Origin: Arthrobacter sp. 35W
GTDB lineage: Bacteria; Actinomycetota; Actinomycetes; Actinomycetales; Micrococcaceae
DNA length: 64,000 bases
Assembly (NCBI RefSeq): GCF_000482545.1
Contig: NZ_KI519454.1
Coordinates: 372,001 to 436,000 of the forward strand
Direction: 5' to 3'
The notes below the pieces were generated by a model. It saw nothing but the letters and a program-made list of their open reading frames with translations, ran no database searches and was not told the DNA's origin. The position numbers and the translations under genes were made by a program. Every line of letters begins with the position of its first letter. Position 1 is the first letter of the stretch. Shown piece by piece: positions 15,789-36,237 of the stretch.

Positions 15789-17820
15789 CACCAGCTACCG
15801 GGCCGGCTCCTGGCTGGGAATCGTCCGCAACTCAACGGCCATAGTGCTTCCCGAAACGACGGATGAGGCCACCGTGTCGAGGCTGTGGGATTTCCTGGGC
15901 ACCGAGCCGAGCATCCATGGCGTGCTCAACCAGGTGACCAGCGGATTCGGCACCGAACTGACAGGCATGCCCTCCTTCGGCATCGTGGCCCTGGCCGAGC
16001 GCCTCCACGTGGTGCTGCGCGGACCCATGTCGCTGACGGCCGTCCAGGACGGCGTGGCAACCATGGTGTCGGGCCGCGATGTCACCACCTGGAGCGAGCG
16101 GTCGCTGGCACTGCCGGACTCCCTTGAGCTGGACCTTGAGCCCTCCGCTGGGCCGTCCGCCGCGGCCCAGACCTCGGCCGGCGGCTGGCTGCCGGTGGGC
16201 CACGCCGTCCTCTGGCTGGACGGGCTGCGCCGCAGCGAGGCCGCGGATGTCACAAATAGCCAAGGCCTTGACAGTAATGTGGATCACAGCAAGGCTGTCG
16301 AAGGCAGTGCGGCAGTCGAAGGTGGCTCCGTCCAGCCGGCCGCAAACCAGGATTCGGCGGGCGGCATCAGCCCGGAGCCCGTGGACGTCCGCGTCCAGGC
16401 AGCTGGTGCCGCCGCCGTTGACTTGGCCGCCGGATCCCATCCGGCCGCCGATGAAGTTGATGCCGACAGTGTTGGTGCCAGCGGCGTGGATGCCGATTCC
16501 GCTGGTTCCGATGACGACACCGACAATGCCGCCCTGGTGGACTGGCTGCTCGGGCCGGCCCTGGAATCCGCCGAGGACGCCGCCGGCGACGCCGCCGAGG
16601 ACACCGCCGACGACGCTGCCGACGACGCTGTGGAGGTCTCCGCGGAGCCCGCCGGCGCAGCCGAAGCCGAGGCCCAGGAGCCGGCCCAGGAGCCGGCCGA
16701 GGCCGCCGATCCCGGCATGACTGCCGCCTGGCCCGGCACCGTTGAGGACCTGGGCAGCGAGGCCCCGGACGCACCTCCGGCCGCCGGCGAGCCCGATGCC
16801 GAGTCCAACAACACCACCAGCTACGACCACCTCTGGGACCACACGGTGGCCCGCTCGGTGGAGGACGCCGCCGTGCACCTCACCGATGCGGACGAGCTGC
16901 CCGCCGTTGCCCCTGCCGTGCAGGCGGCCCAGCTGGCGGACGAGCCGGCCGCTGCCCTGCCGCCGGCTGCACTGTCTGCTGCCGCACCCCCGGCACTGGC
17001 ATCGGTGGCGCTGCCCCCGGCCCCGCCGCTGCCGCCGTCGTTCCAGCCGCCCGTCCCGCCGGTGCAGCCTGCGTTCCAGCCGGCCGCCGCGGCCCCGGTG
17101 GACGAGCTGCCCTCGGGGCTGATCGATTCCGTGCCGTGGCTGCACCAGGAATCCGCCCCGGCATCCGCAGCCTCCGTTCCCGCCGCGCCGGCGTTTGTGG
17201 AGCAGGGCCGGCCCCTTGCCCAGGTGCCGCCGTCGCCGTCGTACGCCCCTGCGGCCGAGGCGGACTACGACAGCGACCACGACGGCCAGACAGTGATGCG
17301 CAGCGAACTGTCCGGCCCCGCGCCGGCCGCACAGCCCGTCCTGGATTCCCGCCCGCCCACGGGACCGGTGGTGCTCGCCAGGATGTGTCCTGCAGGGCAT
17401 GCCAACCCGCCCTCGCGCGGCGTCTGCGCGGCCTGCGGCACGCCCCTGGACGGAGAGGCCCGGCAGGTGGGCCGCCCGCGCCTGGGCCGGATGCACATTT
17501 CCACCGGCGAAGTGGTTGAACTGGACCACTCGCTGATCGTGGGCCGCCAGCCCTCGGTTTCGCGCGTCAACGGCGGGGGCATGCCGCGGCTGGTGCAGGT
17601 GCGCAGCGCCAGCGGCGACATTTCACGCTCCCACGTGGAGATCCGCCTGGAGGGCTGGGAGGTCCTCCTCGTGGACCTGAAGGCCACCAACGGCACCACG
17701 CTGGTGCGCGAGGGCCAGCCGCCGCGCCGGCTGGGGCAGGGCGAGCAGGCCATCGTGCTGGACGGCGACATTGCCGAGCTGGGCGATGGCGTCTCCCTGC
17801 TGTTCGAGGGGATCCTGTGA
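15781..17820 (+). CDS. FHA domain protein with long acidic/proline-rich linker
   Basis: 679 aa from ATG 15781, overlapping the phosphatase gene by 8 nt. Residues 1-150 form a globular domain I do not recognise (SYRAGSWLGIVRNSTAIVLPE). Residues ~160-530 are low-complexity: acidic and Ala/Asp/Glu-rich, then Pro/Ala-rich. A zinc-ribbon-like CPAGHANP...CAACG (about 535-555) precedes a C-terminal FHA domain (about 566-679: IVGRQPSVSR, SRSHVEIRL, KATNGTTLV). It is probably a cytoplasmic scaffold recruited by phosphothreonine. Its stop overlaps the kinase start (GTGA at 17817-17820). Confidence 0.82.
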   Translation: MSSTSYRAGSWLGIVRNSTAIVLPETTDEATVSRLWDFLGTEPSIHGVLNQVTSGFGTELTGMPSFGIVALAERLHVVLRGPMSLTAVQDGVATMVSGRDVTTWSERSLALPDSLELDLEPSAGPSAAAQTSAGGWLPVGHAVLWLDGLRRSEAADVTNSQGLDSNVDHSKAVEGSAAVEGGSVQPAANQDSAGGISPEPVDVRVQAAGAAAVDLAAGSHPAADEVDADSVGASGVDADSAGSDDDTDNAALVDWLLGPALESAEDAAGDAAEDTADDAADDAVEVSAEPAGAAEAEAQEPAQEPAEAADPGMTAAWPGTVEDLGSEAPDAPPAAGEPDAESNNTTSYDHLWDHTVARSVEDAAVHLTDADELPAVAPAVQAAQLADEPAAALPPAALSAAAPPALASVALPPAPPLPPSFQPPVPPVQPAFQPAAAAPVDELPSGLIDSVPWLHQESAPASAASVPAAPAFVEQGRPLAQVPPSPSYAPAAEADYDSDHDGQTVMRSELSGPAPAAQPVLDSRPPTGPVVLARMCPAGHANPPSRGVCAACGTPLDGEARQVGRPRLGRMHISTGEVVELDHSLIVGRQPSVSRVNGGGMPRLVQVRSASGDISRSHVEIRLEGWEVLLVDLKATNGTTLVREGQPPRRLGQGEQAIVLDGDIAELGDGVSLLFEGIL

Positions 17821-19562
17821 GCACCAAGCGGCCCCCCGCTGCACCGCCGCACATTCCGGGCTACAGCTACGTGTCGCTGCTGGGCTCGGGTGGCTTCTCC
17901 GATGTGTTCCTCTACGAGCAGGAGCGCCCGCGCCGCAAGGTGGCGGTGAAGGTTCTGGTGGCGGATCTGAAGACCGACGGCGCGCGACGCCGGTTCGAAT
18001 CCGAGGCCAACCTGATGGCCCAGCTGTCCACGCACCCCTACATCGTCACCATCTACGAGGCGGAGGTCACCGACGCCGGGCACTCGTACCTGGCGATGGA
18101 GTACTGCTCGCGTCCCAGCCTCGACACCCGGTACCGCAAGGCCCGCTTCAGCGTGGACGAGGTCCTGGCCGTGGGCATCCAGGTGGCCTCCGCCGTCGAG
18201 ACGGCCCACCGCGCCGGCATCGCCCACCGCGACATCAAGCCCGCCAACATCCTGGTCACCGACTACAACCGGCCGGCCCTGACGGACTTTGGCATCTCCG
18301 GCACCACCGACGGCGCCGCCGATGAAGACGCCGGCATGTCCATCCCGTGGTCGCCGCCGGAGTCCTTCACCGGTGCCAGCACCGACGGTGTGCTGGTGGA
18401 TGTCTGGGCGCTGGGCGCCACGCTGTACACGCTGTTGGCCGGCCGCTCGCCCTTTGTGGTGCCCGGGGCCTCCAACTCGCAGCGTGAACTGATCAACCGC
18501 ATTTCCACCGCGCCGCTGCCGGGGCTGGGCCGGGCGGACGTCCCGCAGTCCCTGGAACTGGTGCTGGCGACGGCCATGGCCAAGTCCCCGGCCTCCCGCT
18601 ATGCCTCGGCCCAGGCCTTCGCCCGCGCCCTGATGCGGGTCCAGAGCGATCTGAACCTGTCCGTCACACCCTTTGAGATGCTTGACGATTCCGCCCCGGA
18701 GGAGCACCCGGCCGAGGAGAACCAGGAGGCCACCCGGGTCCGCAGCATCGTCTCGATCGATCCGGATGCGGCCACCAACGCGCCCACGTTCCCCACCAGG
18801 TTCCCCGGAACCGCGGGAGCCTTTGGCGCCGGCAACACGACCACCGGCCGCACCGGAACCACCGCAGCCGGAACCACAGGCCGCGGCGCCACAGGCCCCA
18901 CCACGCCGGTGGACTACAGCACAGGGGCCACCGCTCCCGGCGAGGGCACTGTGCCGCGGCCGGGTCTGGTCCGTTCGCCGCATGAGTGGGCCCAGCCGAT
19001 GCCGCGAGATGCGGCATCGGAGGATTCCGTGCTCGCCTCCACCGTGCACCGCTCGGCGGCGCCGGCAGCGGCAGGCCCGCGGGGCTTCCCCGGGGCAGGG
19101 CCGGGAACGGATGCCGGCGCGCAGGGCTCCGAAACCCACCCGCCGCGGCGCTCCAAGCTGTGGCTGGGGATCGGCGCCGGCGTGGTGCTCGCGGGGGCGG
19201 CCGCCGTCGGCATCGCCGTCGTGGCCACCGGCGGCACGCCCACCCAGGAGGCTGCCACCACCACTGCCGCTCCACCGCCGCCGGCCATCGTTGCCGGGGC
19301 CGAGGTTCCCGCTGTCGCCGATTTGAAGGCAACGGCGCAGGACGGCGGAGCCACCTGGACGTGGACCAACCCGGATCCGAAGGAGGGGGACAGCTACCTC
19401 TGGAGCGCCGTCTCCGTGGTGGATGGGCCGCAGTTCAAGCCGATCGGCACGGCGTCGGTGTTTGTCACCAACAACGCCCAGGGCGTGTCCTGCATCGACG
19501 TGGTGCTGGTGCGCAAGAACGGCGCCACCTCGCCGGACACCAAGAAGTGCTATCCGGACTAG
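17817..19562 (+). CDS. transmembrane Ser/Thr protein kinase (Hanks type)
   Basis: 581 aa. The kinase domain spans about residues 13-285: Gly loop GSGGFSDVF, catalytic Lys in VAVKVL, HRDIKPANIL (Asp near residue 138), DFGISG, and SPPE in place of the usual APE. A Thr/Gly/Pro-rich juxtamembrane region follows, then one transmembrane helix at about 447-470 (LWLGIGAGVVLAGAAAVGIAVV) and a ~110-residue extracellular domain without PASTA repeats, with two Cys near the end (SCIDVV; KKCYPD). It probably senses an envelope signal and phosphorylates the FHA-linked components of the same operon. GTG 17817 overlaps the upstream stop. Confidence 0.93.
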   Translation: MSTKRPPAAPPHIPGYSYVSLLGSGGFSDVFLYEQERPRRKVAVKVLVADLKTDGARRRFESEANLMAQLSTHPYIVTIYEAEVTDAGHSYLAMEYCSRPSLDTRYRKARFSVDEVLAVGIQVASAVETAHRAGIAHRDIKPANILVTDYNRPALTDFGISGTTDGAADEDAGMSIPWSPPESFTGASTDGVLVDVWALGATLYTLLAGRSPFVVPGASNSQRELINRISTAPLPGLGRADVPQSLELVLATAMAKSPASRYASAQAFARALMRVQSDLNLSVTPFEMLDDSAPEEHPAEENQEATRVRSIVSIDPDAATNAPTFPTRFPGTAGAFGAGNTTTGRTGTTAAGTTGRGATGPTTPVDYSTGATAPGEGTVPRPGLVRSPHEWAQPMPRDAASEDSVLASTVHRSAAPAAAGPRGFPGAGPGTDAGAQGSETHPPRRSKLWLGIGAGVVLAGAAAVGIAVVATGGTPTQEAATTTAAPPPPAIVAGAEVPAVADLKATAQDGGATWTWTNPDPKEGDSYLWSAVSVVDGPQFKPIGTASVFVTNNAQGVSCIDVVLVRKNGATSPDTKKCYPD

Positions 19563-19631
19563 GCAGCATGACCCCGGGAAGCACAACAGCTCCGGGAAGC
19601 ACAACACCACTGAACTAGCGAAGGGGCACCC

Positions 19632-20336
19632 GTGGGGGACCTGGCCATTGATTTCTGCGGCGAATGGTACGAACCAGACGCCGAGTCCGTCTTCAGCATC
19701 GGGCGTGAGGGCGATCTGGAAGTGGATGACAATCCCTACCTGCACAGGACCTTCCTGCAGATCGCGCGGTACGACAACATCTGGTGGCTGACCAACGCCG
19801 GCACGATGCTCTCGGCCACCATTGCCGATGCCGCCGGCGGCATGCAGGCCTGGCTGGCACCCGGCGCGCGCATCCCGCTGGTGTTTGGCCAGACGAATGT
19901 GGTGTTCACCGCCGGCCCCACCACCTATGAATTCTCCGTGCACCTGAAGACCCCGGCCTTCAAGACCCAGAGCAGCAGCGAGGACCAGGTGGGGGACACC
20001 ACCATCGGGCCGGTGGTCTTCACCGATTCACAGAAGGCGCTGATCGTGGCGCTGGCCGAGCCCATGCTGCGCCGCGATGGCACCGGTTTCAGCGCCATCC
20101 CCTCCTCCGCCGAGGCAGCCCGCCGGCTGGGCTGGGCCCTCACCCGGTTCAACCGCAAGCTGGACAATGTCTGTGACAAACTGGACCGCGTCGGCGTCGC
20201 CGGGCTGCGTGGCGGCGGCGGCAAGCTCGCCACCAACCGCCGGGCCCGCCTGGTGGAGCACGCCGTCACCTCGCACCTGGTCACCTCCGACGACCTTGGC
20301 CTGCTGGACGCCATGAAGGGACGCGACGACGCATGA
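19632..20336 (+). CDS. FHA-like domain protein with C-terminal winged-helix region
   Basis: 234 aa. The N-terminal ~100 residues resemble an FHA fold (FSIGREGDLEVDDNPYLHR; WLTNAGT), although the second conserved Ser/Asn region is loose. The C-terminal part (about 130-225) is helical and looks like a winged helix (SAEAARRLGWALTRFNRKLDNV). GTG 19632 is preceded by GAAGGGG, 69 nt after the kinase stop; that gap contains two copies of an ~18-nt direct repeat (cgggaagcacaaca). Its stop overlaps the ATPase start (ATGA 20333-20336). Likely an adaptor between kinase output and the EssC-type ATPase. Confidence 0.8.
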   Translation: MGDLAIDFCGEWYEPDAESVFSIGREGDLEVDDNPYLHRTFLQIARYDNIWWLTNAGTMLSATIADAAGGMQAWLAPGARIPLVFGQTNVVFTAGPTTYEFSVHLKTPAFKTQSSSEDQVGDTTIGPVVFTDSQKALIVALAEPMLRRDGTGFSAIPSSAEAARRLGWALTRFNRKLDNVCDKLDRVGVAGLRGGGGKLATNRRARLVEHAVTSHLVTSDDLGLLDAMKGRDDA

Positions 20337-23300
20337 AGATCCGTCTGACGCTGCGGCGCGATCCGCAGGAAGCGAAGGACCTGGCCATCACCGTTGACGG
20401 TCTGGCCACGGTGGGCGACATCGCCACCGAGCTCTACAGCTCCGACCCCTCCCGCAAGGGCGCCACCGCTCCGCCCAACCTCTCGCTGATGGTGGAGGAC
20501 GATGTGGTGGGCGGCAGCACCGGCCGGGTGCTCCCGGCGGACAGCAATCTGCTCGAATCCGGCCTGCGCCCCGGCTCCACCGTCTCCCTGACCCAGGTCA
20601 GCGGCCAGTTTGCCGTACCCGGCCATGAGCGCGGACCGGCGGCCGCCACCCTGCGCGTGATGTCCGGGCCCGACGCCGGCAAGGAGTTCGCGCTGCCGGC
20701 CGGCACCAGCTATGTGGGCCGGGACCGCGGCGCCGATGTGCGCCTGAGCGACCCGCTGACCTCCAAACGCCACGCCCGCATCACCGTGGGCGACACGGTG
20801 GAGATCGTGGACACCAACTCCGCCAACGGCCTGGTCATGGAGGGGCGGCAGATTTCCCGCGCCGTCCTGGGCGCCTCGGACCTGGTGGTCCTGGGCGACA
20901 CCACCATCTCGGTGCTCAGCCTGGGCCGCGCCGCCGCGGCCGGCCCCAGCACGCCGCTGGTGGAGTTCAACCGCTCCCCGCGCGTCGTCCCCTCGTTCAA
21001 GATCGAGGAGCAGCAGGTTCCCGCCGGCCCGCAGCGCCCGCACCGCCAGCGCTTCCCCCTGCTGATGATGGTGGCCCCTGTGATCATGGGTGCCGTGATG
21101 TTCGGCGCGACGCGCAGCCCGTACAGCCTGATCTTCATGGCGATGATGCCGATGATGATGATCGCCAGCTATGTCGACCAGAAGTTCCAGGCCAGCAAGG
21201 AGCTCAAGGCCGCCGTTGAGCAGTTCCGGGGCTCCGTGGCCGAGTTCCGCCGCCAGATGACAGCCCGCCAGCAGGTGGAGCGGGCCGTGCGGCTGGCCGA
21301 GGTCCCCTCCGTGGCCGAGACGGTGGATGGCATCTACACCCTGGGCCCGATGCTGTGGACGCACCGCCCCGAGCACGAGGCCTTCCTCAGCCTGCGCCTG
21401 GGCGTGGGCCGGGCGCCCTCCCGCACGCCGGTGAAGGCGCCGTCGACCAATGACACGGTGCCGGAGTACATGGAGGAGATCGGCGATCTGGTCACCGAAT
21501 TCTCAGAGATCGACGCCGTGCCCGTGGTGGCACAGCTGCGCCACAGCGGCGCGCTGGGTCTGGCCGGTCCGCGCGGCGTGGTGGACGACGTCGCCCGCGG
21601 CCTGGTGCTGCAGGCGGTGGGCCTGCATTCGCCCGCCGAGCTGGTGGTGGCCGCGCTGACCGCGATGGAATCGCGCGCCCGCTGGACCTGGCTGCAGTGG
21701 CTGCCCCATGTGGGCAGCGTGCACAGCCCCCTGGGCGGGGACCACCTGGCCGCCGGCTCCGGCGCAGGAGGCTCGCTGCTGGCCCGGCTGGAGGATCTGG
21801 TGGTCCAGCGCGGCGGCAGCCTCGACGCCAACAGCGCCGCGCTGCGCTCCCGGCAGGATCCGGACAAGATGGAGCCGCCGGCACCGAAGGTCCCGGCGCT
21901 GCTGGTCATCGTCGAGGACGACGCCAAGGTGGACCGCGGCCGGCTGGCCCGGCTCGCCGAACACGGCGCCGACGTCGGCATCCACGTCCTCTGGGTCGCC
22001 ACCACGGTGGCGGCGCTGCCCGCCGCCTGCCGCGACTTCCTGCACGTCGACGGCGGCAGCGGCACCACCACCGGGCAGGTGCGCCTGGGCCAGCTGACCT
22101 ACCCGGTCAGCTGCGAAAGCGTCGACGCCGCCCTCGCCGGCGACCTGGCCCGCATGCTGGCCCCCGTCGTCGACGTCTCCAAACCGGTGGCCGATGATTC
22201 CGATCTTCCCCGCGCCGTCTCCTATGTGGCCCTGGCCGGCCACGACATCGTGGAAACCACCTCCGCCATTGCGGACCGGTGGAAGGAGAACAACTCCGTG
22301 GCCTCCTCGGCCGTGCCCAACCGCAAGTTCCAGGGCACGCTGCGCGCTCTGGTGGGGTCCAAGGGCGTGGAGCCGATGTACCTGGACCTGAAGACCGAGG
22401 GCCCGCATGCCCTGGTGGGCGGCACCACCGGAGCGGGCAAGTCCGAGTTCCTGCAGTCCTGGGTGCTGGGCATGGCCGCGGCCTACAGCCCGGACCGGCT
22501 CTCCTTCCTCTTTGTCGACTACAAGGGCGGCGCGGCCTTTGCCGACTGCGTCCAGCTCCCGCACACCGTGGGCCTGGTGACGGACCTGTCCCCGCACCTG
22601 GTGCGCCGCGCGCTCACCTCGCTGCGGGCGGAGCTGCACTACCGCGAGCACCTGTTCAACCGCAAGAAGGCCAAGGACCTGCTCGCCATGGAGCGCGAGG
22701 CGGATCCGGAAACGCCGCCGTCGCTGGTCATTGTGGTCGATGAGTTCGCCGCGCTGGCCAAGGAGGTGCCGGAGTTCGTCGACGGGGTGGTGGACGTGGC
22801 CGCCCGCGGCCGTTCCCTGGGCCTGCACCTGATCCTGGCCACCCAGCGCCCCTCCGGCGTCATCCGCGACAATCTGCGCGCCAACACCAATATGCGCATT
22901 GCCCTGCGCATGGCCGATGTGGACGACTCCCAGGACATTCTGGGCGAGCCCACGGCCGCGTACTTCAGCCCGGCCATCCCCGGCCGCGGCGCCGCCAAGA
23001 CCGGGCCCGGGCGCATCCAGGGCTTCCAGACCGGCTACGCCGGCGGCTGGACCACGCGGACGCCGCAGCGCCCGCGGATCGACATCGTGGAAATGGACTT
23101 CGGATCCGGGGCGCAGTGGGAGCAGGAAGTGCTCCAGGCCCCCGTGGAGGAGGACGCCGGCCCCAACGACATCTCGCGCGTGGTCGCCAATGTGTCGCTC
23201 GCCGCCGTCGAACTGGGCATCAAGCCGCCGCGCAAGCCCTGGCTGGGTGAACTGCCCCAGACCTACGAGTTCTCCAAGCTGCCCAACCCGCGCACCGATG

Positions 23301-24769
23301 AGCGGCTGCTGCTGGGTGTGATGGACGATCCCGAACACCAGGCCCAGCCGACCGTCTCCTACGAGCCGGACCGGGACGGCAACATGGCCATTCTGGGCTC
23401 CAGCGGCTCGGGCAAGTCCGCGGCGCTGCGCACCATCGCCATTGCCGGTGCCGTGACGCCGCGCGGCGGCCCCGTGCAGGTCTACGGCATCGACGCGGCC
23501 TCCAACGGTCTGGCGATGCTGGAGCAGCTGCCGCATGTGGGTGCGATCATCAACGCCGAGGACCACGAGCGTGTGGGCCGGCTGCTGCGGCACGTGCGCT
23601 CCATCATCGACGCCCGGGCCGAGGCCTTCGCCGAGGTCAAGGCGGGCACCATCAGCGAGTACCGCCGGCTGGCGGGCAAGCCGGAGGAGCCGCGCATCAT
23701 CATCCTGCTGGACGGTCTGGGCACCTTCCGGGAGATCTACGAATTCCGCTCCGGCATGACCCAGTCCGAGGTGCTCCAGCAGATCGCCACCGACGGCCGC
23801 CCGATGGGTGTGCACGTGGTGGTGGCCGGCGACAGCGCCAAGTCGCTGCCGCCGTCGTTGGCCGCCTCCATCCAGCGCACGCTCGTGCTGCGCATGGCCA
23901 CCCCCGACGACTACGGCAACCTGGGCCTGCCCCGGGACGTCCTGACGGCCACCTCGCCCCCGGGGCGCGGCATGTTGGACGGGCGCGAGGTGCAGCTTGC
24001 CGTCTTCGGCGGCAACGCCAACCTGGCCCTGCAGGCGCGCCAGGTGGAGAAGCTGGCCGAGTCCATGCGCCGCCAGGGCGTTCCGGAGGCGCCGGGCGTG
24101 CTGGCGCTGCCGGAAAGCCTGGACCTGCAGGTGCTCCCCGCCGCAGCCGGCGGACATGTGGTGGTGGGTGTGGACGACTTCAACCTGGAGCCGGCCGGAC
24201 TGGCCGCCACAGGTGCGCTGATGGTCACCGGCCCGCCCGGATCGGGGCGGACGACGGCGCTGGTCACCCTCGCGCAGGCGCTGAAGCGCTCCTCGCCGCA
24301 GACCCGCCGGGTCTACTTCGGCTCGCGCAAATCCGCCGTCGCCTCGCTTCCGGTGTGGGACGAGGCCTACGCGACCCCGGGCGCCGTGGCACCTGAACTG
24401 TCCCGTCTCGCGGAGCTGGCCGAGGGCGGCGCGGACGATGTGGCGTTCTTCATCGAGGGCGTCACAGAGTTCTCCGATTCCGCCGCCGAGATGGATCTGG
24501 TGTCCCTGATCAAGGCCGCCGTGAAGGCCGGCCAATGGGTGGTGGGGGAGGCCGAGACCTCCACCTGGTCCTCGGCGTGGAACCTCGCAGGCCTGTTCAA
24601 GTCAGGCCGCCGCGGTCTGCTGCTGAACCCCGGCGACGTCGAGGGTGACACCCTGATGAGCACGCCGCTGGGGAGGATCTACAACAACAAGTTCGTCCCG
24701 GGACGTGGCTACATCGTCGGCCGCGGCAAGGCCTTCAAGGTCCAGGTCGCCACCGCCGACGTGCACTAA
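20333..24769 (+). CDS. EssC/EccC-type FtsK-SpoIIIE secretion ATPase
   Basis: 1478 aa, essentially the length of staphylococcal EssC. Order: a ubiquitin-like N-terminal segment (~1-90), an FHA domain (~104-175: YVGRDRGADVRLSD, SKRHARI, DTNSANGL), two transmembrane helices (~239-280), then three ATPase domains with P-loops GGTTGAGKSEF (~696), GSSGSGKSAA (~1022) and GPPGSGRTTA (~1298). Domain 1 has Walker B LVIVVDEFAAL and ATQRPSGVI. In domain 3 the Walker Lys is Arg, as in degenerate third domains of this family. Such ATPases drive type VII protein export. No WXG100 substrate gene or other core type VII component is in the window. It is the last gene of the operon. Confidence 0.9.
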   Translation: MKIRLTLRRDPQEAKDLAITVDGLATVGDIATELYSSDPSRKGATAPPNLSLMVEDDVVGGSTGRVLPADSNLLESGLRPGSTVSLTQVSGQFAVPGHERGPAAATLRVMSGPDAGKEFALPAGTSYVGRDRGADVRLSDPLTSKRHARITVGDTVEIVDTNSANGLVMEGRQISRAVLGASDLVVLGDTTISVLSLGRAAAAGPSTPLVEFNRSPRVVPSFKIEEQQVPAGPQRPHRQRFPLLMMVAPVIMGAVMFGATRSPYSLIFMAMMPMMMIASYVDQKFQASKELKAAVEQFRGSVAEFRRQMTARQQVERAVRLAEVPSVAETVDGIYTLGPMLWTHRPEHEAFLSLRLGVGRAPSRTPVKAPSTNDTVPEYMEEIGDLVTEFSEIDAVPVVAQLRHSGALGLAGPRGVVDDVARGLVLQAVGLHSPAELVVAALTAMESRARWTWLQWLPHVGSVHSPLGGDHLAAGSGAGGSLLARLEDLVVQRGGSLDANSAALRSRQDPDKMEPPAPKVPALLVIVEDDAKVDRGRLARLAEHGADVGIHVLWVATTVAALPAACRDFLHVDGGSGTTTGQVRLGQLTYPVSCESVDAALAGDLARMLAPVVDVSKPVADDSDLPRAVSYVALAGHDIVETTSAIADRWKENNSVASSAVPNRKFQGTLRALVGSKGVEPMYLDLKTEGPHALVGGTTGAGKSEFLQSWVLGMAAAYSPDRLSFLFVDYKGGAAFADCVQLPHTVGLVTDLSPHLVRRALTSLRAELHYREHLFNRKKAKDLLAMEREADPETPPSLVIVVDEFAALAKEVPEFVDGVVDVAARGRSLGLHLILATQRPSGVIRDNLRANTNMRIALRMADVDDSQDILGEPTAAYFSPAIPGRGAAKTGPGRIQGFQTGYAGGWTTRTPQRPRIDIVEMDFGSGAQWEQEVLQAPVEEDAGPNDISRVVANVSLAAVELGIKPPRKPWLGELPQTYEFSKLPNPRTDERLLLGVMDDPEHQAQPTVSYEPDRDGNMAILGSSGSGKSAALRTIAIAGAVTPRGGPVQVYGIDAASNGLAMLEQLPHVGAIINAEDHERVGRLLRHVRSIIDARAEAFAEVKAGTISEYRRLAGKPEEPRIIILLDGLGTFREIYEFRSGMTQSEVLQQIATDGRPMGVHVVVAGDSAKSLPPSLAASIQRTLVLRMATPDDYGNLGLPRDVLTATSPPGRGMLDGREVQLAVFGGNANLALQARQVEKLAESMRRQGVPEAPGVLALPESLDLQVLPAAAGGHVVVGVDDFNLEPAGLAATGALMVTGPPGSGRTTALVTLAQALKRSSPQTRRVYFGSRKSAVASLPVWDEAYATPGAVAPELSRLAELAEGGADDVAFFIEGVTEFSDSAAEMDLVSLIKAAVKAGQWVVGEAETSTWSSAWNLAGLFKSGRRGLLLNPGDVEGDTLMSTPLGRIYNNKFVPGRGYIVGRGKAFKVQVATADVH

Positions 24770-24804
24770 CCCGGCCACCGCCGTCGTCGTCAGTGGGCAG
24801 TGGC

Positions 24805-24862
24805 GACGCAGTTCCCCTTTCATGACGCAATCGTGGACGCGTCCTGGGCGGGGAACTGCGTC
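24805..24862 (+). repeat. 58-bp palindromic intergenic element, copy 3
   Basis: Outer arms gacgcagttcccc and ggggaactgcgtc are perfect 13-bp inverted repeats, with an inner palindrome GACGCGTC. It lies 36 nt after the EssC-type stop and just before the convergent caspase gene end, so it could act as an RNA hairpin at both 3' ends. Confidence 0.9.
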
Positions 24863-24876
24863 CCAGCCGAATGCCG

Positions 24877-26010
24877 CTACCCGATGGCGGCCCAGGTGAG
24901 GGGTCCGACGACGCCGTCGGCCACCAGGGCGTTGTCGCGCTGGAAGGCGCGGACTGCCGATTCGGTGCCGGGGCCGAAGATCCCATCAACCACCAGCCGG
25001 TAGCCGATGTCCGAGAGCCGCTGCTGCAGGTAGCTGACATGCTCCCCGGTGGAGCCGCGGCGGACGGTCGGGCGCGAGGTGGTCGTCGTCGGCGTCGTGG
25101 GGGTTGACGGCGTGCTGGGGGTGGTGCCTGGGTTCGAGGACGACGGCGTGATGCAGAATGGCCGCTGCCCGAGGAATACCGGGTCAACGGTGCCCGTCGT
25201 GTACAGGTTCGGAACCTGGTCCGGGGGCATGGAGTTCAGGATGGACTGGTGGAACGAGGTGTAGTTGCCCTGGAAGCTGCCGTTGGCCCAGGCCTGCAGC
25301 AGCGCGCCGGTGAACTGGCCGTTGACGGCGCCATCGTAGGAGAGCTGCGAGTCCTGGCAGCCGGCCAGCAGGATCACACTGGCGCTGACATTGGCATCCG
25401 ATTTGGCTCCGCTGAGCGCCTGGACAAATTGGTAGGTGCCGCGGCGCTTCTCGTTGTCGGCCACCTGGACGGACAGCGGCAGTGCCTTGGGCAGTCCCTC
25501 AACCACCGCCACCGAGTTGGCCACGTCCTTGGGCATGGATCTGGTCTGCTCCAGCAGGCCCTTGCGGCAGCCCTTGTTGATCAGCATCCGTGCCACGGTG
25601 CCGCTGTGGCAGCTGTCGGAGCAGACCAGGATGCGCACGCCGGGGGAGAACTGGGACCACATCTGGTAGAGCTCGTCGTCGACGATCTGGCGGTCGTAGG
25701 CCACCCACGTCTCGTCCTGGCTGTCCTCCTCGTCGCCGTTGTTGTCATCCACCTGGCCGCCGTGGCCGGAATAGGTGATCAGACAAATGTCCCCGTCCGA
25801 GGCCTGCTGGGCGAGCAGGCTGATCTCACCGATGATGGCCTGCGAGGTGGCCTGTTCCGTGATCAAACATGTGGTGGAGAAGCCCTCGGCCTCTGCCAGC
25901 TGCTGCATGGAATTGGCATCGTTGACACAGCCGCTCAAGGCTCCGTTCCAGCCGTTGTAGGCGTTGGGATCCACTCCGTTCAGCCCGATGTGCAGCGAGT
26001 ATCCAGCCAT
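24877..26010 (-). CDS. caspase-family (C14) protease with peptidoglycan-binding domain
   Basis: 377 aa from ATG 26010, preceded by GAAAGGACAGGG. The caspase p20-like fold has the catalytic dyad His83 (TYSGHGGQ) and Cys134 (DSCHSG), with an acidic loop DDNNGDEEDSQDE between them as in metacaspases that need calcium. A Ser/Thr/Pro linker (about 288-315) leads to a C-terminal peptidoglycan-binding domain of the PF01471 type (GEHVSYLQQRLSDIGY; VDGIFGPGTESAVRAFQ). There is no signal peptide or transmembrane helix, so a wall-binding domain is attached to an apparently cytoplasmic protease. It is last in a minus-strand operon with two large proteins, starting 52 nt after the preceding stop. Confidence 0.88.
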   Translation of the reverse strand: MAGYSLHIGLNGVDPNAYNGWNGALSGCVNDANSMQQLAEAEGFSTTCLITEQATSQAIIGEISLLAQQASDGDICLITYSGHGGQVDDNNGDEEDSQDETWVAYDRQIVDDELYQMWSQFSPGVRILVCSDSCHSGTVARMLINKGCRKGLLEQTRSMPKDVANSVAVVEGLPKALPLSVQVADNEKRRGTYQFVQALSGAKSDANVSASVILLAGCQDSQLSYDGAVNGQFTGALLQAWANGSFQGNYTSFHQSILNSMPPDQVPNLYTTGTVDPVFLGQRPFCITPSSSNPGTTPSTPSTPTTPTTTTSRPTVRRGSTGEHVSYLQQRLSDIGYRLVVDGIFGPGTESAVRAFQRDNALVADGVVGPLTWAAIG

Positions 26011-26062
26011 TGTCCCTGTCCTTTCGTGCGGTGCAGCATCTGCTGCGGGATTCGCCGGCGGC

Positions 26063-29000
26063 TCAACTGGGCAGCCGGATGGGTATGAGAACGCCCTGCG
26101 AACGCACCGGCCAGTCCACCGGGGCGGCAGTGGTGCGGGTGCCATTGGTGGCGACGGCCGTCACCGTGTACGCCAGCTTTGGATCCCCGGCGAACTCGGT
26201 CAACGGCAGCACATAGTGCCGCTCGGCTTCGCGGATGCCGGCATTGAGCAGCACCGGCGCCGCATCGGGGCGGCCGAGCATGGAGGTTTGGATTTCCCAA
26301 CCGGCCAGCGCCGCCGGTGCAGGGTCGTCCACCGCGACAAAGGTGACCACCAGATCGAGGTCCTCGATGTAGGCGCGGATCTCATCCAGCCGTTCGGCCG
26401 ACTGGTCCGCCTCGAAGACGACGTCGAACCCGCCGGGCGGGCCGTCCACGGCCAGGGTGCCCTGCGGTTCGATCATGGCGGCCAGCGGCACTGCCGCCAC
26501 GCCTGCCACCGCCAGGGCCGTGACGGCCAGGCGCTGGCCGGTGTGGTTCTCCAGATCGAATCTGCCGTCCGGGCGCGTGGACACCTCGATGGGTCCCGAC
26601 GCGAAGGGTCCTGCCACCGAAGCCAGGCCAATCTCCAGCGTGCTGGCGATGCGGACATTGCCGGGCAGCACCGCCGACATGGAGCCGCGCAGGCCATCGC
26701 GCTCCAGGAGGGATTTCAGCACCAGGAAGCCGGCGATGTCGGTGGAGACGACGACGTCGAAGCCCGTCGCGGTGGGGACGGCGTTGATGGTGGAGTCCGA
26801 CGGCGATGCCCAGCGCAGCTCCGGCTCCGCGCCGGTGTCCGGCAGGTATTCCAGCACCGGGGACGGGGCGGATGCCTTCAGCTCCGCGGCGATGGCGGCG
26901 CGGGCAAAGGGTGGCAGATCCGGCTCCAGCGAGGCGGCGAGCACGCAGCGGATGTTGGTGGGGTTGTCCGCGTCGATGGTGCTGTGCAGGAGCAGTTGGG
27001 GCCGGTAGGCCTTCTCGCTGGCCGGGCCGTAGCGCCCCACGCAGTACCGCTGCGGCACCACCAGGAACCGGCCCGGACTGCGCAGGGACCGGTAGACCCT
27101 GGCCCGGCCCGCGGCGGCCGCGACGGGGATCTCCTGGTAGGTCAGGTACTCCGTGGATCCCAGCTGCAGCGCCGGCCGGCAGCCGATGGACACCTTCCCG
27201 GCCGGGGTGGATTCACGGTACAGGGTGCCGAAGTCCGCGCAGGGTACGGAGATTGCCGTGGTGCGGACCGTGGCAAACTGGCTCCACGCGAAGCTGTTAA
27301 GCCGCCACTGGGCCAACACGCCGGCGTCGAACTGCCATTGCGGAAGCACCGTGGCGTTGGCCAGCATCGTCCCGTGCAGGCGCAGCGGCACGGCCCGGGT
27401 GTCGGCGGCAATGTTTGCCAGGGACCAGGTCTTGTTCAACCCCATGATCAGGGTTGGCGGCAGTCCACTGGACAGCCGCCAACCCTCAAATCCGGCCGCC
27501 ACCGTGACGGTGGCCGGCTCGGCCTGGAAGCCCGGGACCGAGAGGGCCCCGTAGGCCAGCCGTGCCCAGTTGTCCATCAACCGGAAGCGGGCGGTGAGCA
27601 GCCCGCCGTCGCCGGGCTGAACGTCGAAGGAGTCCGCGGTGATCTGTTCGCGCTGGGTGGCGCCGTGCTCGTCGCGGAAGGGGATGCCCAGCTGGACGGT
27701 GAAGCCGGAGAGCTCGACGGCGCGCAGCTCGGGCCGCCCGGCGGCCTCCCACTCCGCCACGGTGGGCGCAGATTTCTGGGACTTCAGCGTCACGGATATC
27801 GTGGCGGTGATGCCGATGGACCCGTCGAGGGTGTGGCCGCCGGCCGGTTCCACCTCAAAGCTGAAGGGGCTTCCCTCCGGAGCCGCGCCCGGAGCCGGCA
27901 GCACCAGCGCATATTCCGGCGCATACCAGTGCAGGTCGCTCCAGCGGTCCTTCCAGATGCCCGCCGAGCCGTTGTTGGCCACCGGGCCCTGGCGCTGCTG
28001 CCCGATGGTGGCCACCAGCTCCAGGTCCTGCAGATGGTGGATCAGCGGATGCGCCGTCACCAGAGGCTGGTCCACCAGAATGGTGGCGGCTGGCCGGTTG
28101 GAGCCCAGCGCCGATCCCACCGATTGGATTCTGTTGCCCATGGCGATGAATCCCAGACCGGCACCGCCCGCACCACCGGGGCCGCGCGGGGCCCGGGTGG
28201 TGCGGGCCGGCAGCACGGCGTCCAGGCGGCCGCCGCTGCTGCTGACCAGATGGAGAAAGCGGGCCCTGTCGTGGGCGATGGCCGGGTTGACCAGTCCGGC
28301 CAGCTCCACTGTGGCTTCCTGTACCCCGCCGTCCGTCTGGACCGTGCCCAGACGCATCGCCACATCCATGTCGCCCAGGGATTGCAGGGCCAGGTGGTAC
28401 GACGGCTCTTCACCGTCGCCGGCCGGCCCAGCGGCCTGCCCGGCCGTGGCCGGTTCCAGAACGTAGCGTGCCGCCTTGAGGACGGCGTCCAGCACCCGCT
28501 GCCCGGCTCCGGTGCCGGCGGTGGCGCCGTCGGCGGACACGGCCCCGGCGGCGATGAGGGAGGGCAGGTAGTTCACCAGGTCGGCCCGGGTGAACAGCCG
28601 GGTCCCGTCGGCCACCGCGTCCAGCTGTTTCCAGAGCCCGCCGAGCCGCACGTGGATGGTGGCGGCGGGAGTGGCGGTGGCCTTGGTTTCGACAACGGCC
28701 CGCAGCCCGAAGCGCGGGGAGCCGGCCACCAGGGCCTCCAGCAGCGCCGTCCCGGCCGCGCCGGCCAGCGTGGCCGAGAGGGCGCCGTGTCCGAACGGTC
28801 CGGTGACGCGCTGGCTGGCCACCACCGCCGGCCCGTCTGTAGTTGCTCCGCCGCCGGCCGGAATGCCCGGAGCGCCGTGGTCCAGCAGACTGAAGGTGAC
28901 GTCCTCGACGACGGCGGCGGCACCGGTGCCATAGGCGCCGCCATCCGCGGCGGCGGCACCGCCGTCGTCGGCGCCGTCCGCCCCTCCGTCAGATGCAATC

Positions 29001-29146
29001 TCGGCCTGCAGATCAATGGCCAGAACGGCCCTCTCCACCAGCGGCCCGAGCCGCTCATCCGGCGCCGGGGCGCGCACCAGCACAAACGTTGCCGACACCA
29101 GCGGCTCGCCGGCCGCATCCTTTCGCAGCTTCAGCGTGATGCCCAT
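26063..29146 (-). CDS. 1027-aa protein of unknown function in the caspase operon
   Basis: The start is ATG 29146 with GGGAGG upstream; a longer reading would run into the preceding gene. I do not recognise a family. It has no signal peptide or transmembrane helix. The sequence is beta-rich with Ala/Gly-rich inserts at about 55-75 and 190-250. It contains few Cys (VPCADF, SIGCRP, QRYCVG, IRCVL). Motif-like stretches include NRPAATILVDQPLVTAHPLI, WKDRWSDLHWYAPEYALVLP and NKTWSLANI. The terminal 90 residues (VVFEADQSAERLDEIRAYIEDLDLVV...) look like a Sm/beta-sandwich module. It starts 34 nt after the upstream gene and ends 52 nt before the protease start, so the three are probably one transcript. 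It may be a protease substrate, a sensor or a structural component; none of these is shown. Confidence 0.75.
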   Translation of the reverse strand: MGITLKLRKDAAGEPLVSATFVLVRAPAPDERLGPLVERAVLAIDLQAEIASDGGADGADDGGAAAADGGAYGTGAAAVVEDVTFSLLDHGAPGIPAGGGATTDGPAVVASQRVTGPFGHGALSATLAGAAGTALLEALVAGSPRFGLRAVVETKATATPAATIHVRLGGLWKQLDAVADGTRLFTRADLVNYLPSLIAAGAVSADGATAGTGAGQRVLDAVLKAARYVLEPATAGQAAGPAGDGEEPSYHLALQSLGDMDVAMRLGTVQTDGGVQEATVELAGLVNPAIAHDRARFLHLVSSSGGRLDAVLPARTTRAPRGPGGAGGAGLGFIAMGNRIQSVGSALGSNRPAATILVDQPLVTAHPLIHHLQDLELVATIGQQRQGPVANNGSAGIWKDRWSDLHWYAPEYALVLPAPGAAPEGSPFSFEVEPAGGHTLDGSIGITATISVTLKSQKSAPTVAEWEAAGRPELRAVELSGFTVQLGIPFRDEHGATQREQITADSFDVQPGDGGLLTARFRLMDNWARLAYGALSVPGFQAEPATVTVAAGFEGWRLSSGLPPTLIMGLNKTWSLANIAADTRAVPLRLHGTMLANATVLPQWQFDAGVLAQWRLNSFAWSQFATVRTTAISVPCADFGTLYRESTPAGKVSIGCRPALQLGSTEYLTYQEIPVAAAAGRARVYRSLRSPGRFLVVPQRYCVGRYGPASEKAYRPQLLLHSTIDADNPTNIRCVLAASLEPDLPPFARAAIAAELKASAPSPVLEYLPDTGAEPELRWASPSDSTINAVPTATGFDVVVSTDIAGFLVLKSLLERDGLRGSMSAVLPGNVRIASTLEIGLASVAGPFASGPIEVSTRPDGRFDLENHTGQRLAVTALAVAGVAAVPLAAMIEPQGTLAVDGPPGGFDVVFEADQSAERLDEIRAYIEDLDLVVTFVAVDDPAPAALAGWEIQTSMLGRPDAAPVLLNAGIREAERHYVLPLTEFAGDPKLAYTVTAVATNGTRTTAAPVDWPVRSQGVLIPIRLPS

Positions 29147-29180
29147 GCCGCGCCTCCCGGGTCCCGGACCACCAGGGTGG

Positions 29181-31460
29181 CTAGAGGTCGTAGTCGAGAT
29201 AGGACCCCACGGGCACGGCCTTGGAGCCGTCCCCAGCGGGCGGGCCGTCCTTGGATCCGCCCGCCGGCGCCGCAGCGACCGGTGCAGCACCCACAGCGGC
29301 ACCGGCACCCCCGGCACCCGCGGCGATCTCCCGTGCCGCCACCTCGCGCAGCAGCCGGATCCGCTCGTCCGGCACGGAGCGGGTGACCACCCCGGGTGAA
29401 TCCGGCCGGGGCACGTCCACCAGCAACGGCCCGTTGCCGCTGGACCGGGTCCAGGGACCTGTCCACGCGCGGCCGGGCTCAAAGAGCGTTCCCTTGACGG
29501 TGACGGACACCCGGTAGCGGTAGAACGGGCGGAAGCCCGGGTCTCCGGTGAAGATCATCCAGGTCCTGTCCTCGTCGTAGTCCGCCCGGGTCCAGCGGAA
29601 GCGCACCGGGTCGAAGCCCACGGGGTTGCCGCTGTCCGGATCCACGGGCTCGAACTCCGCCTCCACCAATTGGGTGTCGTCGGTGAGGACCACGCCCAGC
29701 TCGATCGGCCCCACCGCCAGACGGCCGGCACTGTCGGCCCGGACCTCCAGGGTGGTGTCGTTGATCAGGGTGCCATTGGGCTCCGGGTCGATGGCGATGA
29801 CGTTCTTCTGGATCTGTACGCGCTTGTACTTGTTGTCCAGTTCGCTGGGCGGCTCGTTCAGGAAGACCTGGCGCTTGACGAAGGTCAGATCCGGCTTCCA
29901 GCCCGCAGGGGCGTTCTGGACATCGGAGGCGATCTTCTGCGCCGTCTGGAACTTCCAGCTGCTGTCTGCACCGCCGGAGCCGCTGAAGGACGTTCCCTCC
30001 CAGTTGATCTCGCCGCGGGTGTTCGGGTAGCCCACTTGGATGCCGAGCTGGGCCACCGTGCCATCGCCCCAGGACGCCACGGGGTGGCAGATCCGCGCGA
30101 GGCGGCGGGGCCAGTCGTCGAGGTAGACGCTCAGGAAGTACTTGCGCTCGGCGTCCGGGTCCGCCTTCATCTCGTCGTACATGCCCGCGAGCGAGCTCGA
30201 GATGGTGTGGTCCTGCAGGTAGGCGAACTGCTGGGTTTCGGTGTAGCTGAGGTTGAGGTTCGTGGAGTCGCGGCGGTACTTCAGCGCCACGCCGGCGCCC
30301 CAGGGGCTCCAGAAGCTGCCGCCGGAGGATGAAGCCTGGGCTGCCTCCACCGTGGGCTGGGGCGGGTCGAAAATGACCTTCTTGGCCGCGTCCATGAACT
30401 TCTCGTAGACCAGATCGCTCTTCTCATCCAGGCGCTTGGCGATGGCGTCGGCCCCGGGCAGCGTGGTGTCCACCTTGAGGTCCACCTCGATGGTGCCGTT
30501 GATCCGCATGTTGTTGAATTCGGTCTTCAGGTCCACGGAGGCCCAGAGGTAGCGGCCGGAGGCGGCGGCGGAAAAGTGGCTGAAGACTCTGTCCCAATTG
30601 CCCTTGATGGACAGCGTGCAGACCGGGGACCAGACCTTGAGCTTGTAGTTCTGGACCACCACCATCGGGGACGCCGTGCCGTGGAAGGCCTCCCACAGGA
30701 TGGCCGCCGGATATTTGCCCACCAACCCGGAGAAGGCGTGGGTTCCGGTGGGGTCGATCGATCCCTGGCCTTCGCCGAACATCTGCCAGTAGAACGGGTC
30801 CAGATTGTTCCCCGAGCCATTGGTCAGCACGGGCGGAGCGCCGTCGGGGGTGGTCACCGGCCCTGGGGGAGCGGGCTCGCCGTCGCGCGGCTCACCGGGC
30901 ATCGGCCGGGCGCCGCTGCGGCTGCCGGGCATGCCGTAGTACTGGACTTCGCTGACGGTCTTGCCGCCGCGGGTTGCCGTGCCCAGCACCGGGAAGCCAC
31001 GGGTGGCCGGGGCGATGTTGGAGACGGAGGTGGTGCTGGAGGTGATGATGGCCGGGCGGAACATCGGTGGCTTGCGGCTGTTGCGGATGCCCCAGAAGAC
31101 GTCGTCGCTGTCCTTGAACCGTGCCGTGATTTCGCCTTCGGCCTGCGTCCGCACGGTGTCCGGCAGCGCACCTGTGACGGAGAACGTCACCACGCCGCCG
31201 GCAACATCCCCGCCGCCGCCGATGACGCCTTCGCCACCCGTCCCGGCAAAGCGGATCAGATTGAAGAGGTAGTCCCCGGCGTCGGGTCCGTTCTTGCGGG
31301 CCATCCGCACGATGTTGGGGATGTAGTAGAAAACGGGGGCCTCGCCCTGGGCGATCAGCTCCCTGTTGTTGACGTCGGGGAGGTACAAAACCGAGTACCC
31401 GCCCTTGACCACTGGCTGGGTGCCGCCCGCGTAGCTCGGCCCCATTGCTTGCACCGCCAT
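29181..31460 (-). CDS. 759-aa protein of unknown function, first gene of the caspase operon
   Basis: ATG 31460 is preceded by GGAAGG. I do not recognise the family. There is no signal peptide or membrane segment. The first ~70 residues (GGYSVLYLPDVNNRELIAQGEAPVFYYIPNI and following, a conserved-looking block rich in Tyr/Pro) precede a Gly-rich loop. The middle is beta-rich with many Trp/Tyr (NLDPFYWQMFGEG; RYLWASVDLKTEF; YLDDWPRRLARICHPVASWGDG). Residues ~580-690 resemble one or two beta-sandwich domains. The tail is Ala/Gly-rich (about 700-750) and ends SYLDYDL. The size, solubility and beta-sandwich content are those of a structural or binding protein. It is the promoter-proximal gene, divergent from ligA. 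Confidence 0.75.
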   Translation of the reverse strand: MAVQAMGPSYAGGTQPVVKGGYSVLYLPDVNNRELIAQGEAPVFYYIPNIVRMARKNGPDAGDYLFNLIRFAGTGGEGVIGGGGDVAGGVVTFSVTGALPDTVRTQAEGEITARFKDSDDVFWGIRNSRKPPMFRPAIITSSTTSVSNIAPATRGFPVLGTATRGGKTVSEVQYYGMPGSRSGARPMPGEPRDGEPAPPGPVTTPDGAPPVLTNGSGNNLDPFYWQMFGEGQGSIDPTGTHAFSGLVGKYPAAILWEAFHGTASPMVVVQNYKLKVWSPVCTLSIKGNWDRVFSHFSAAASGRYLWASVDLKTEFNNMRINGTIEVDLKVDTTLPGADAIAKRLDEKSDLVYEKFMDAAKKVIFDPPQPTVEAAQASSSGGSFWSPWGAGVALKYRRDSTNLNLSYTETQQFAYLQDHTISSSLAGMYDEMKADPDAERKYFLSVYLDDWPRRLARICHPVASWGDGTVAQLGIQVGYPNTRGEINWEGTSFSGSGGADSSWKFQTAQKIASDVQNAPAGWKPDLTFVKRQVFLNEPPSELDNKYKRVQIQKNVIAIDPEPNGTLINDTTLEVRADSAGRLAVGPIELGVVLTDDTQLVEAEFEPVDPDSGNPVGFDPVRFRWTRADYDEDRTWMIFTGDPGFRPFYRYRVSVTVKGTLFEPGRAWTGPWTRSSGNGPLLVDVPRPDSPGVVTRSVPDERIRLLREVAAREIAAGAGGAGAAVGAAPVAAAPAGGSKDGPPAGDGSKAVPVGSYLDYDL

Positions 31461-31583
31461 TGTCCCGGCCTTCCTGTCTCGTTGGAGTTCCCGTTGGAGT
31501 GCGACGACGGCCGCTCTGGCTGGGCAGTCCGGCGCCGCCTAGGTTTGCCCCACCGTAGCCCCGGTGGTGTTATCCGCCCGTGA

Positions 31584-34854
<3,271 letters not shown>

Positions 34855-35328: not shown

Positions 35329-35412
35329 CAGCGCCGCTGGGGTCCATTGACAAGGATGACCGGCGCGTTCATGCTGGCGTTCAAGAGGTATGGTCTGGGG
35401 GGCCGCTCGCAT

Positions 35413-35432
35413 CGGCAAGGGATTCCTTGCCG
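35413..35432. promoter_or_regulatory. 8-bp inverted repeat upstream of the BTAD regulator
   Basis: CGGCAAGG-GATT-CCTTGCCG is a perfect 8-4-8 palindrome about 46 nt before the BTAD-regulator start, followed by an A+T-richer stretch. It may be an operator or a weak hairpin ending the ligA transcript; no T-run follows. Confidence 0.35.
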
Positions 35433-35478
35433 CCAAGTGGATATTGCACATTTTGGACGGCATACTCTGGGGGCACAG

Positions 35479-36237
35479 ATGGATGCGCAACCCTTCCCTG
35501 TCTGGGATCTGAAACTGCTCGGGTGTTGGCAGCTCAGCCGCGATGGCCAAACCATCGACATCGGCGTCAGACAGCAGCGGCTCATCGTGGCATCCATCCT
35601 CCTCGGAGCCCGGCCCCGCCACGTGCTGGCGGGCCTGTTGTGGCCCCTGAGCCCGGAGGCCCAGGCAGCAGCCAGCCTGCGCGCCACCCTGTTCACCATT
35701 TCCCACCGGCTGCCGTCCCTGCTGTGCTGCACGCACGATTCCATCGTGGTGGATTCCGAAGTCCGGGTGGACTACCACCGGATTGCCGCGCTGATCGAGG
35801 CGATCGATGCCTCGGGCGGCGACGTGCCCGCCGCCTGCGCCGAGGAATTGCTCCGGGCGGAGCTGCTGCCGGGCTGGTACGACGACTGGATCATTTTCGA
35901 GCAGGAGCGGCTGCAGCAGCGCAGACTGCAGGCCCTGGAAACACTGGCCGCGCGGCTGCTTGAGCACGGCGACGCCGGCCGCGCACTGGACACGGCCTGC
36001 GCCGCAGCATCGATCGACCCCCTGCGGGAAAGCTGCCAGATGATCATCATCCAGTGCCACCTGCGGCTCGGGAACCGGGCCATGGCGCTGCGCAGCTATG
36101 GCGAATACCGCGAGCGGCTGCGCCGTGAACTGGGCATCTCGCCGTCGGCCCGGCTGGGGGCTCTGGTCGCGTTTGGGTCGGAGCCCGGCGGCGCCAATCG
36201 GCACCTGCGCCTTGGCGCCCTGCGTCCACAGACCTGA
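35479..36237 (+). CDS. BTAD-domain (SARP/AfsR-like) transcriptional regulator
   Basis: 252 aa from ATG 35479, with GGGGG upstream; an in-frame ATG at 35347 would add a non-conserved leader. The N-terminal ~95 residues form an OmpR-like winged helix (LKLLGCWQLSRDGQTIDIGVRQQR; LLWPLSP), and residues ~110-235 form the helical BTAD repeat (LLPGWYDDWIIFEQERLQQRR; LRESCQMIIIQCHLRLGN; LGISPSARL). SARP-type proteins activate single operons. The nearby CoA-transferase is a possible target, but nothing proves it. Confidence 0.85.
   Translation: MDAQPFPVWDLKLLGCWQLSRDGQTIDIGVRQQRLIVASILLGARPRHVLAGLLWPLSPEAQAAASLRATLFTISHRLPSLLCCTHDSIVVDSEVRVDYHRIAALIEAIDASGGDVPAACAEELLRAELLPGWYDDWIIFEQERLQQRRLQALETLAARLLEHGDAGRALDTACAAASIDPLRESCQMIIIQCHLRLGNRAMALRSYGEYRERLRRELGISPSARLGALVAFGSEPGGANRHLRLGALRPQT

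Follow-up and report, generated by a model that had tools for sequence, protein, structure and literature searches.

A mobile operon of two unassigned large proteins and an exchangeable protease in Arthrobacter sp. 35W

Caspase operons and the locus in Arthrobacter sp. 35W

Several described systems come close to the locus discussed here, an operon of two large proteins, P1 and P2, and a caspase-fold protease, P3, in Arthrobacter sp. 35W. The canu loci (CanABC) are caspase-nuclease antiphage loci that lie in defence islands and near transposases, and their prototype resembles our locus in having three genes in one operon, one of them for a caspase-fold protease (PMC12799240, in the sections used here). 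The same sections give the difference: the canu caspase bears a MALT1-like immunoglobulin fold and is paired with a pro-nuclease, whereas in our operon no nuclease family was found and the caspase carries a peptidoglycan-binding tail. MaOC1 is a bacterial caspase that, in the part of its description used here, cuts an antitoxin (PMC7935541). In the portions consulted of the survey by Asplund-Samuelsson et al. 2012 (PMC3501461), 237 of 508 metacaspases are in operons of varied content, 70 of 217 operons have no known function, an amidase domain occurs in a Geobacter sulfurreducens metacaspase operon, and caspase plus peptidoglycan binding is already found in 1.6% (11) of metacaspases; those portions describe no partners like P1 or P2, and the survey detected no metacaspase in Deinococcus-Thermus. 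In the open PubMed Central literature we recognised nothing that describes the P1-P2-caspase operon.

The window is the whole stretch of DNA that was analysed, 64,000 nucleotides (nt) of contig NZ_KI519454.1. We find in it an operon that is real, mobile and undescribed-looking, with an exchangeable protease. An original prediction, made from the letters alone, had proposed a 759 amino acid (aa) and a 1027-aa protein followed by a caspase at 34 and 52 nt, and the coordinates confirm it, with 34 nt between P1 and P2 and 52 nt between P2 and P3:

29181..31460, minus strand: P1, 759 aa, ATG start; by sequence comparison a divergent member of an unnamed superfamily, with a Gly/Ala-rich C-terminal tail
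26063..29146, minus strand: P2, 1027 aa, ATG at 29146; orphan family
24877..26010, minus strand: P3, 377 aa, ATG at 26010; caspase-fold (metacaspase-type, peptidase C14) protease with a peptidoglycan-binding tail
25198..25965, minus strand: Peptidase_C14 domain of P3, residues 16-271 (Pfam match)
25762..25764, minus strand: codon of catalytic His83 of P3, invariant in 7/7; position computed from the ATG at 26010
25609..25611, minus strand: codon of catalytic Cys134 of P3, invariant in 7/7; position computed from the ATG at 26010
24883..25050, minus strand: PG_binding_1 domain of P3, residues 321-376 (Pfam match)

The Peptidase_C14 match of P3 scores 81.8 bits vs. a cut-off of 21.4 and covers model positions 10-225 of 233. 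The intact His83/Cys134 dyad of the prediction is borne out, as H83 (in YSGHGG) and C134 (in DSCHSG) are, together with D132, invariant in all seven aligned caspases, the window's included. We take YSGHG and DSCHSG to have their metacaspase-type meaning in P3, and from the DSCHSG motif we infer that P3 may cleave after Arg or Lys, the specificity that we presume for metacaspases.

What had been overlooked is the other end of the protein. Behind a Thr/Pro-rich linker P3 carries a PG_binding_1 domain (67.2 bits vs. a cut-off of 23), and this domain is over the cut-off in 7/7 operon-linked caspases, with one copy in loci L006 and L007 and two in L008, L025, L026 and L027. The wall-binding tail changes the likely place of action of the protease. 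By sequence, the closest solved structure is 3bij, that of G. sulfurreducens GSU0716 (E-value 1.1e-77, residues 3-288), and that match stops at residue 288, short of the tail. Against the model of the EACC1-associated caspase (NF047832), P3 scores 27.3 bits, under the NCBIfam cut-off of 140. In a simple hydropathy scan, the first 40 positions of P1, P2 and P3 have no N-terminal hydrophobic leader.

The three genes are inherited as one unit

The order P1-P2-caspase is kept in seven loci of two phyla, with gaps of 7-177 nt, and these full loci represent four lineages: Arthrobacter-like, Antribacter, the genus of genome G787, and Deinococcus. Ordered co-occurrence in scattered genomes, which the original prediction had proposed to look for, is thus what we see. 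P1, P2 and the protease are inherited as one unit; their pairwise identities correlate at 0.90-0.98, and their trees, with seven rows each, have no strongly supported conflict.

Purifying selection appears to act on all three genes. In comparison with Arthrobacter sp. PsM3, the ratio of nonsynonymous to synonymous substitution rates (dN/dS) is 0.08 for P1, 0.19 for P2 and 0.16 for P3, with dS at 0.97-1.35, which is near saturation. Two less diverged pairs give 0.05-0.32, and over the three pairs the ranges are 0.05-0.10 for P1, 0.11-0.32 for P2 and 0.07-0.17 for P3. By these estimates P2 is the fastest-evolving of the three; its between-lineage identity is 28-45%, vs. 48-72% for P1.

The relatives come from several searches. 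When 72,556 plasmids are searched using tblastn, P1 and P2 each match one record, and it is the same Deinococcus taeanensis plasmid, on which P1, P2 and a caspase lie in order. Arthrobacter sp. PsM3 and Antribacter gilvus came up when GTDB contigs were scanned with P1 patterns, and both have the three genes in order; such exact-pattern scans miss divergent relatives, and P2 patterns gave nothing though these two loci carry P2. Among 297 genomes of the order, a P1 profile matches six: the window's genome, G787, G800 and G875, which have P1-P2-caspase, G733, and weakly G896. A profile of the caspase domain, run over 297 genomes of the order, matches 14 of them, four at 395-497 bits and the other ten at 134 bits or less. 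The four strong matches, three of them in one genus, all lie in P1-P2 loci, and their genomes are 4/5 of those with a close P1. In total there are eight close-P1 loci, and P2 and a protease follow in 8/8.

P1 is sparsely distributed. Within the family it is found in 1/197 genomes, namely that of the window, and in G787's family in 4/24, made up of 3/8 of G787's genus and the weak G896. A phylum sample of 396 genomes gives three matches: the window, the distant relative G250, and one in G506 (two stops, E-value 2.8e-4) that was rejected as noise.

The surroundings of the operon in the window include two further features:

24770..31601, no strand: insertion spot, variable among relatives, with eccC and ligA as its borders; 6832 nt in the window
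24805..24862, no strand: inverted repeat between the P3 and eccC stops, which converge; 24-nt arms with 83% complementarity

On the plus strand eccC ends at 24769 and ligA starts at 31602, and P1, P2 and P3 occupy the minus strand between them. In 10 relatives of the genus, the eccC-ligA junction measures about 28-1904 nt in 8/10 and holds about 7 and 17 kilobases of other cargo in 2/10. These are the 10 of 14 relatives for which the junction was fetched; G970 and G967 carry eccC and ligA on separate contigs, and eccC has no match in G964 and G143. The small junction in most relatives, the patchy occurrence and the plasmid location in Deinococcus together imply that the operon was acquired, and most simply it is an acquired insert at a cargo spot. 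The GC content of the operon is 69.1%, similar to the 71.0% and 67.5% of the flanks. The inverted repeat is possibly a two-way terminator; an intrinsic-terminator scan did not pick it up, and a promoter/terminator scan of the locus gave nothing useful.

On the eccC side, window positions 15658-24769 hold FHA, kinase and FHA-FtsK/SpoIIIE (EccC-like) genes, preceded by transglutaminase and RDD-FHA genes, and by our reading this is an ESX-like locus. Among the best matches listed, the flanks of the window and of L006, L007 and L008 share one BTAD regulator and nothing else. BTAD-type regulators lie within about 5 kilobases of three P1-P2 loci (window 35347-36237, L007:17324-18118 and L006:11629-13527); we rejected the regulator as a part of the system, since its positions and orientations differ and the window and L007 proteins are 40% identical.

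P1, P2 and the family libraries

The two large proteins had been predicted to belong to no recognised family, and the libraries agree. At E-values up to 1, Pfam, NCBIfam, PADLOC and PHROGs contain nothing that matches P1 or P2, and a single-sequence search of the PDB with either protein gives nothing at E-values up to 10. The four libraries show no nuclease or other enzyme family in either protein, a nuclease below detection being possible. There is no match to P1 or P2 in 50,697 phage records, nor in IMG/VR by conserved patterns. A PDB search with a P2 profile gave weak kinase matches alone (E-values 0.4-0.6), which we rejected as chance, and a profile comparison of P1 with P2, weak because of the few sequences, gave no kinship (probability 0.4%). 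As judged from these comparisons, P1, in its superfamily, and P2, in its orphan family, have been overlooked by the curated libraries searched here.

In these searches P2 is met nowhere except beside P1. A profile of seven P2s matches exclusively P2 genes of P1-P2 loci among 21 loci, which had themselves been chosen via P1 or the caspase. A single-sequence search of 197 genomes and the 72,556 plasmids finds P2 solely in the window's genome and in Deinococcus. The prediction that P1 and P2 have neither signal peptide nor membrane helix holds by hydropathy for the leader; as to the helix, P2 has a hydrophobic stretch at residues 874-892 (mean 2.24 over 19 residues). In the other six P2s the hydropathy peaks are 1.18-1.78, that of Antribacter (1.78) in about the same region and the others elsewhere. 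The scan is crude, and we read the stretch as probably buried, not membrane-spanning.

P1 has more distant relatives. A profile of the seven P1s matches proteins in G250 (L030, E-values 1e-11 and 2e-8), G896 (L029, 3e-9), Pararhizobium (L032, 4e-5) and Paracoccus (L033, 5e-5), where the E-values refer to a small set of fetched loci; pairwise BLAST agrees with the matches in all four. By pairwise BLAST the superfamily forms arrays of large paralogs on two plasmids:

L033:7398-21434: five P1-superfamily proteins, Paracoccus plasmid pNSM5a
L032:1715-14487: four P1-superfamily proteins, Pararhizobium plasmid p2

We did not count L033:21443-23677 as a member, because it has no pairwise match at an E-value of 1e-3, was aligned by place and size, and its profile match is circular. 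The Paracoccus array adjoins genes for EAD1, a trypsin-like protein and a STAND-like ATPase. Among the arrays there is a PLD-like enzyme, and a papain-like protein, the latter by motif reading only and without a Pfam match. The 15 aligned superfamily proteins have no convincing Pfam or NCBIfam family (best E-value 0.0012, in one member), and the superfamily profile has no PDB match. At the sensitivity of these searches, the superfamily is found in 4/72,556 plasmids (with one member as query), in 1/121 genomes of G250's order, and in 2/396 genomes of the phylum by profile, both already in the profile. On this evidence we place P1, as a divergent member, in an unnamed and rare superfamily whose genes stand in arrays in both Pseudomonadota and Actinomycetota. 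By eye, one member, in L030, has collagen-like repeats, and in G250 a 1359-aa protein with DUF346 repeats (L031:1221-5297) lies upstream of P1-superfamily genes.

What the operon may do

The exchange of the protease in one genome, G733, is what we take as the strongest hint at function. The G733 P1 is 37% identical to the Deinococcus P1, and the third gene there encodes not a caspase but a 988-aa protein that combines Peptidase_S8 and Peptidase_M15_3 domains and, by hydropathy, lacks an N-terminal leader. Two stretches of this protein match the region of the Deinococcus caspase that lies between its caspase and peptidoglycan-binding domains (34% and 31% identity, E-values 2e-14 and 3e-9). Because the subtilase-M15 protein and the Deinococcus caspase share this unnamed domain, the two proteases look interchangeable. 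P1 and P2 look like a common platform, and the third slot like a place for a protease with a wall-binding or wall-cutting domain.

The reading we prefer, to which we give a probability of about 0.42, is that P1 and P2 hold or control a leaderless, wall-targeted protease, which serves as the exchangeable effector in a system for conflict or lysis. P1 and P2 would assemble into a large, probably beta-rich complex for binding, restraining or delivering the protease, with P1 as the conserved scaffold and P2 as the fast-changing part, specific for a partner or a trigger. The protease would be the effector, and its tail would place it at the wall of its own cell, leading to lysis or cell suicide; alternatively, it might act at the wall of a rival after release. 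The whole would move horizontally as a three-gene unit. A bolder version, which we regard as possible though doubtful, is that P1-P2, belonging to an undescribed superfamily of large paralogs, is a new platform that loads exchangeable, leaderless, wall-aimed hydrolases, in a modular killing, lysis or delivery system without known counterpart, whose wider arrays may use PLD-like and papain-like enzymes.

A number of observations weigh against the preferred reading. The protease swap is seen at one locus, and the P2 of that locus is split over two overlapping frames, through an assembly error or because the gene is broken, and its pieces were searched apart. The AlphaFold models of P1 are unusable (mean predicted local distance difference test score 30, from 3 sequences, and 41 for the C-terminal part), so that the beta-rich complex is a guess. 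We found no route by which a wall-binding protein without a leader could be exported and saw no consistent defence-island setting of the operon, and PADLOC gives a single match on it, P3 to a generic caspase model, with no known anti-phage system complete. Finally, the caspase is not tied to P1/P2. It occurs without them in the fetched flanks on Rhodococcus, Rhizobium, Sinorhizobium, Annamia and Palleronia plasmids, the Palleronia stretch having less than 1 kilobase upstream of the caspase. Of the 58 matching plasmid records, some of which match in the wall-binding tail alone, six were opened, and P1-P2 lies within the fetched flanks in the Deinococcus one alone. Likewise, four of ten IMG/VR caspase loci were examined (L099, L100, L101 and L102; L100 stops right after the caspase), with no P1/P2 in the fetched stretch; these caspases are of the GSU0716-like subfamily and 37-47% identical.

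As for the original prediction, it had seen the large proteins as possible sensor, scaffold or target of the protease. Its unassigned proteins and their ordered co-occurrence stand. It had also named a protease found mostly without them as telling against it, and outside the order this is nearly what we see, since the caspase subfamily mostly appears there without P1/P2; and it had missed the wall-binding tail. The operon-linked caspases cluster, and an approximately unbiased test neither rejects nor shows a single clade (p-AU 0.20). Rhizobial loci of the same subfamily (L010:6927-8837 and L011:6924-8840) are 42-45% identical over the domain. They differ from our operon in having some 350 residues before the caspase, with a GDSL-type (GDSL/SGNH) domain in L010, in the lack of a peptidoglycan-binding domain in L010, and in having no P1/P2 in the fetched stretch. 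In Rhizobium L010 the neighbours are chitosanase and L,D-transpeptidase genes, and in L011 a papain-family protease gene.

Those chitosanase and L,D-transpeptidase neighbours fit a role in remodelling the surface or wall without any conflict, in which P1 and P2 would be structural or adhesive and the protease would trim them or anchor them at the wall. The peptidoglycan-binding tail and the M15 wall-peptidase alternative agree with a wall role too, as do the collagen-like repeats in an L030 member and the DUF346-repeat protein upstream of others. On the other hand, by hydropathy neither P1 and P2 nor the caspase and the subtilase have a leader or a conserved membrane helix, and a patchy, mobile distribution is atypical of a structural gene. 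We consider this unlikely.

Also unlikely is a protease-gated system, in which the caspase, switched on by one large protein, cuts the other, the true effector. A three-gene caspase operon with such gating logic exists in canu (PMC12799240), and MaOC1 cleaves an antitoxin (PMC7935541), as far as the portions used of both papers go. The variable linkers do contain a few invariant Arg, R185 in P1, and R315 and R321 in P2 within 'PxR...R'. R185 is in the least conserved quarter of P1, in a gapped alignment where three other positions either hold an invariant Arg or are close to the tail, and R315 and R321 are in a variable linker outside the least conserved quarter of P2. But neither protein has a consistent enrichment of Arg and Lys in its variable quarter, and an Arg-rich stretch is seen by eye at about the same place of P2 beside the G733 subtilase too, and is hence non-discriminating. 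Neither P1 nor P2 matches an enzyme family, nucleases included, among those searched, and gating leaves the wall-binding tail unexplained.

It is very improbable that the operon supplies a substrate or an accessory to the type VII (ESX-like) secretion locus next to it, a proposal largely refuted by the loci that are not linked to such a neighbourhood. It is true that the operon directly follows eccC, at a junction where 8/10 relatives carry a WXG100 gene and the window none, and that P1 ends in YLDYDL, which fits YxxxD, presumably a type VII motif. The window's genome has five WXG100 matches on contig C2, two of them over the cut-off. But the relatives' WXG100 protein has no match in the window or in the fetched stretches of the six other full loci, the flanks differ among the four loci compared, and the P1s of the other linked loci do not conserve YxxxD. 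That the three genes travel on mobile DNA as neighbours by chance, with no functional tie, would suit the cargo spot between eccC and ligA, but conservation across lineages refutes it: seven loci in two phyla keep the order, with P2 identity as low as 28% from one lineage to another, all three genes appear to be under purifying selection in the pairs tested, and the protease of the third slot is exchanged.

Small and portable, with a protease slot that varies from one natural locus to another, the operon lends itself to cloning in one piece and to testing. It opens an unnamed superfamily, that of P1, and an orphan family, that of P2.

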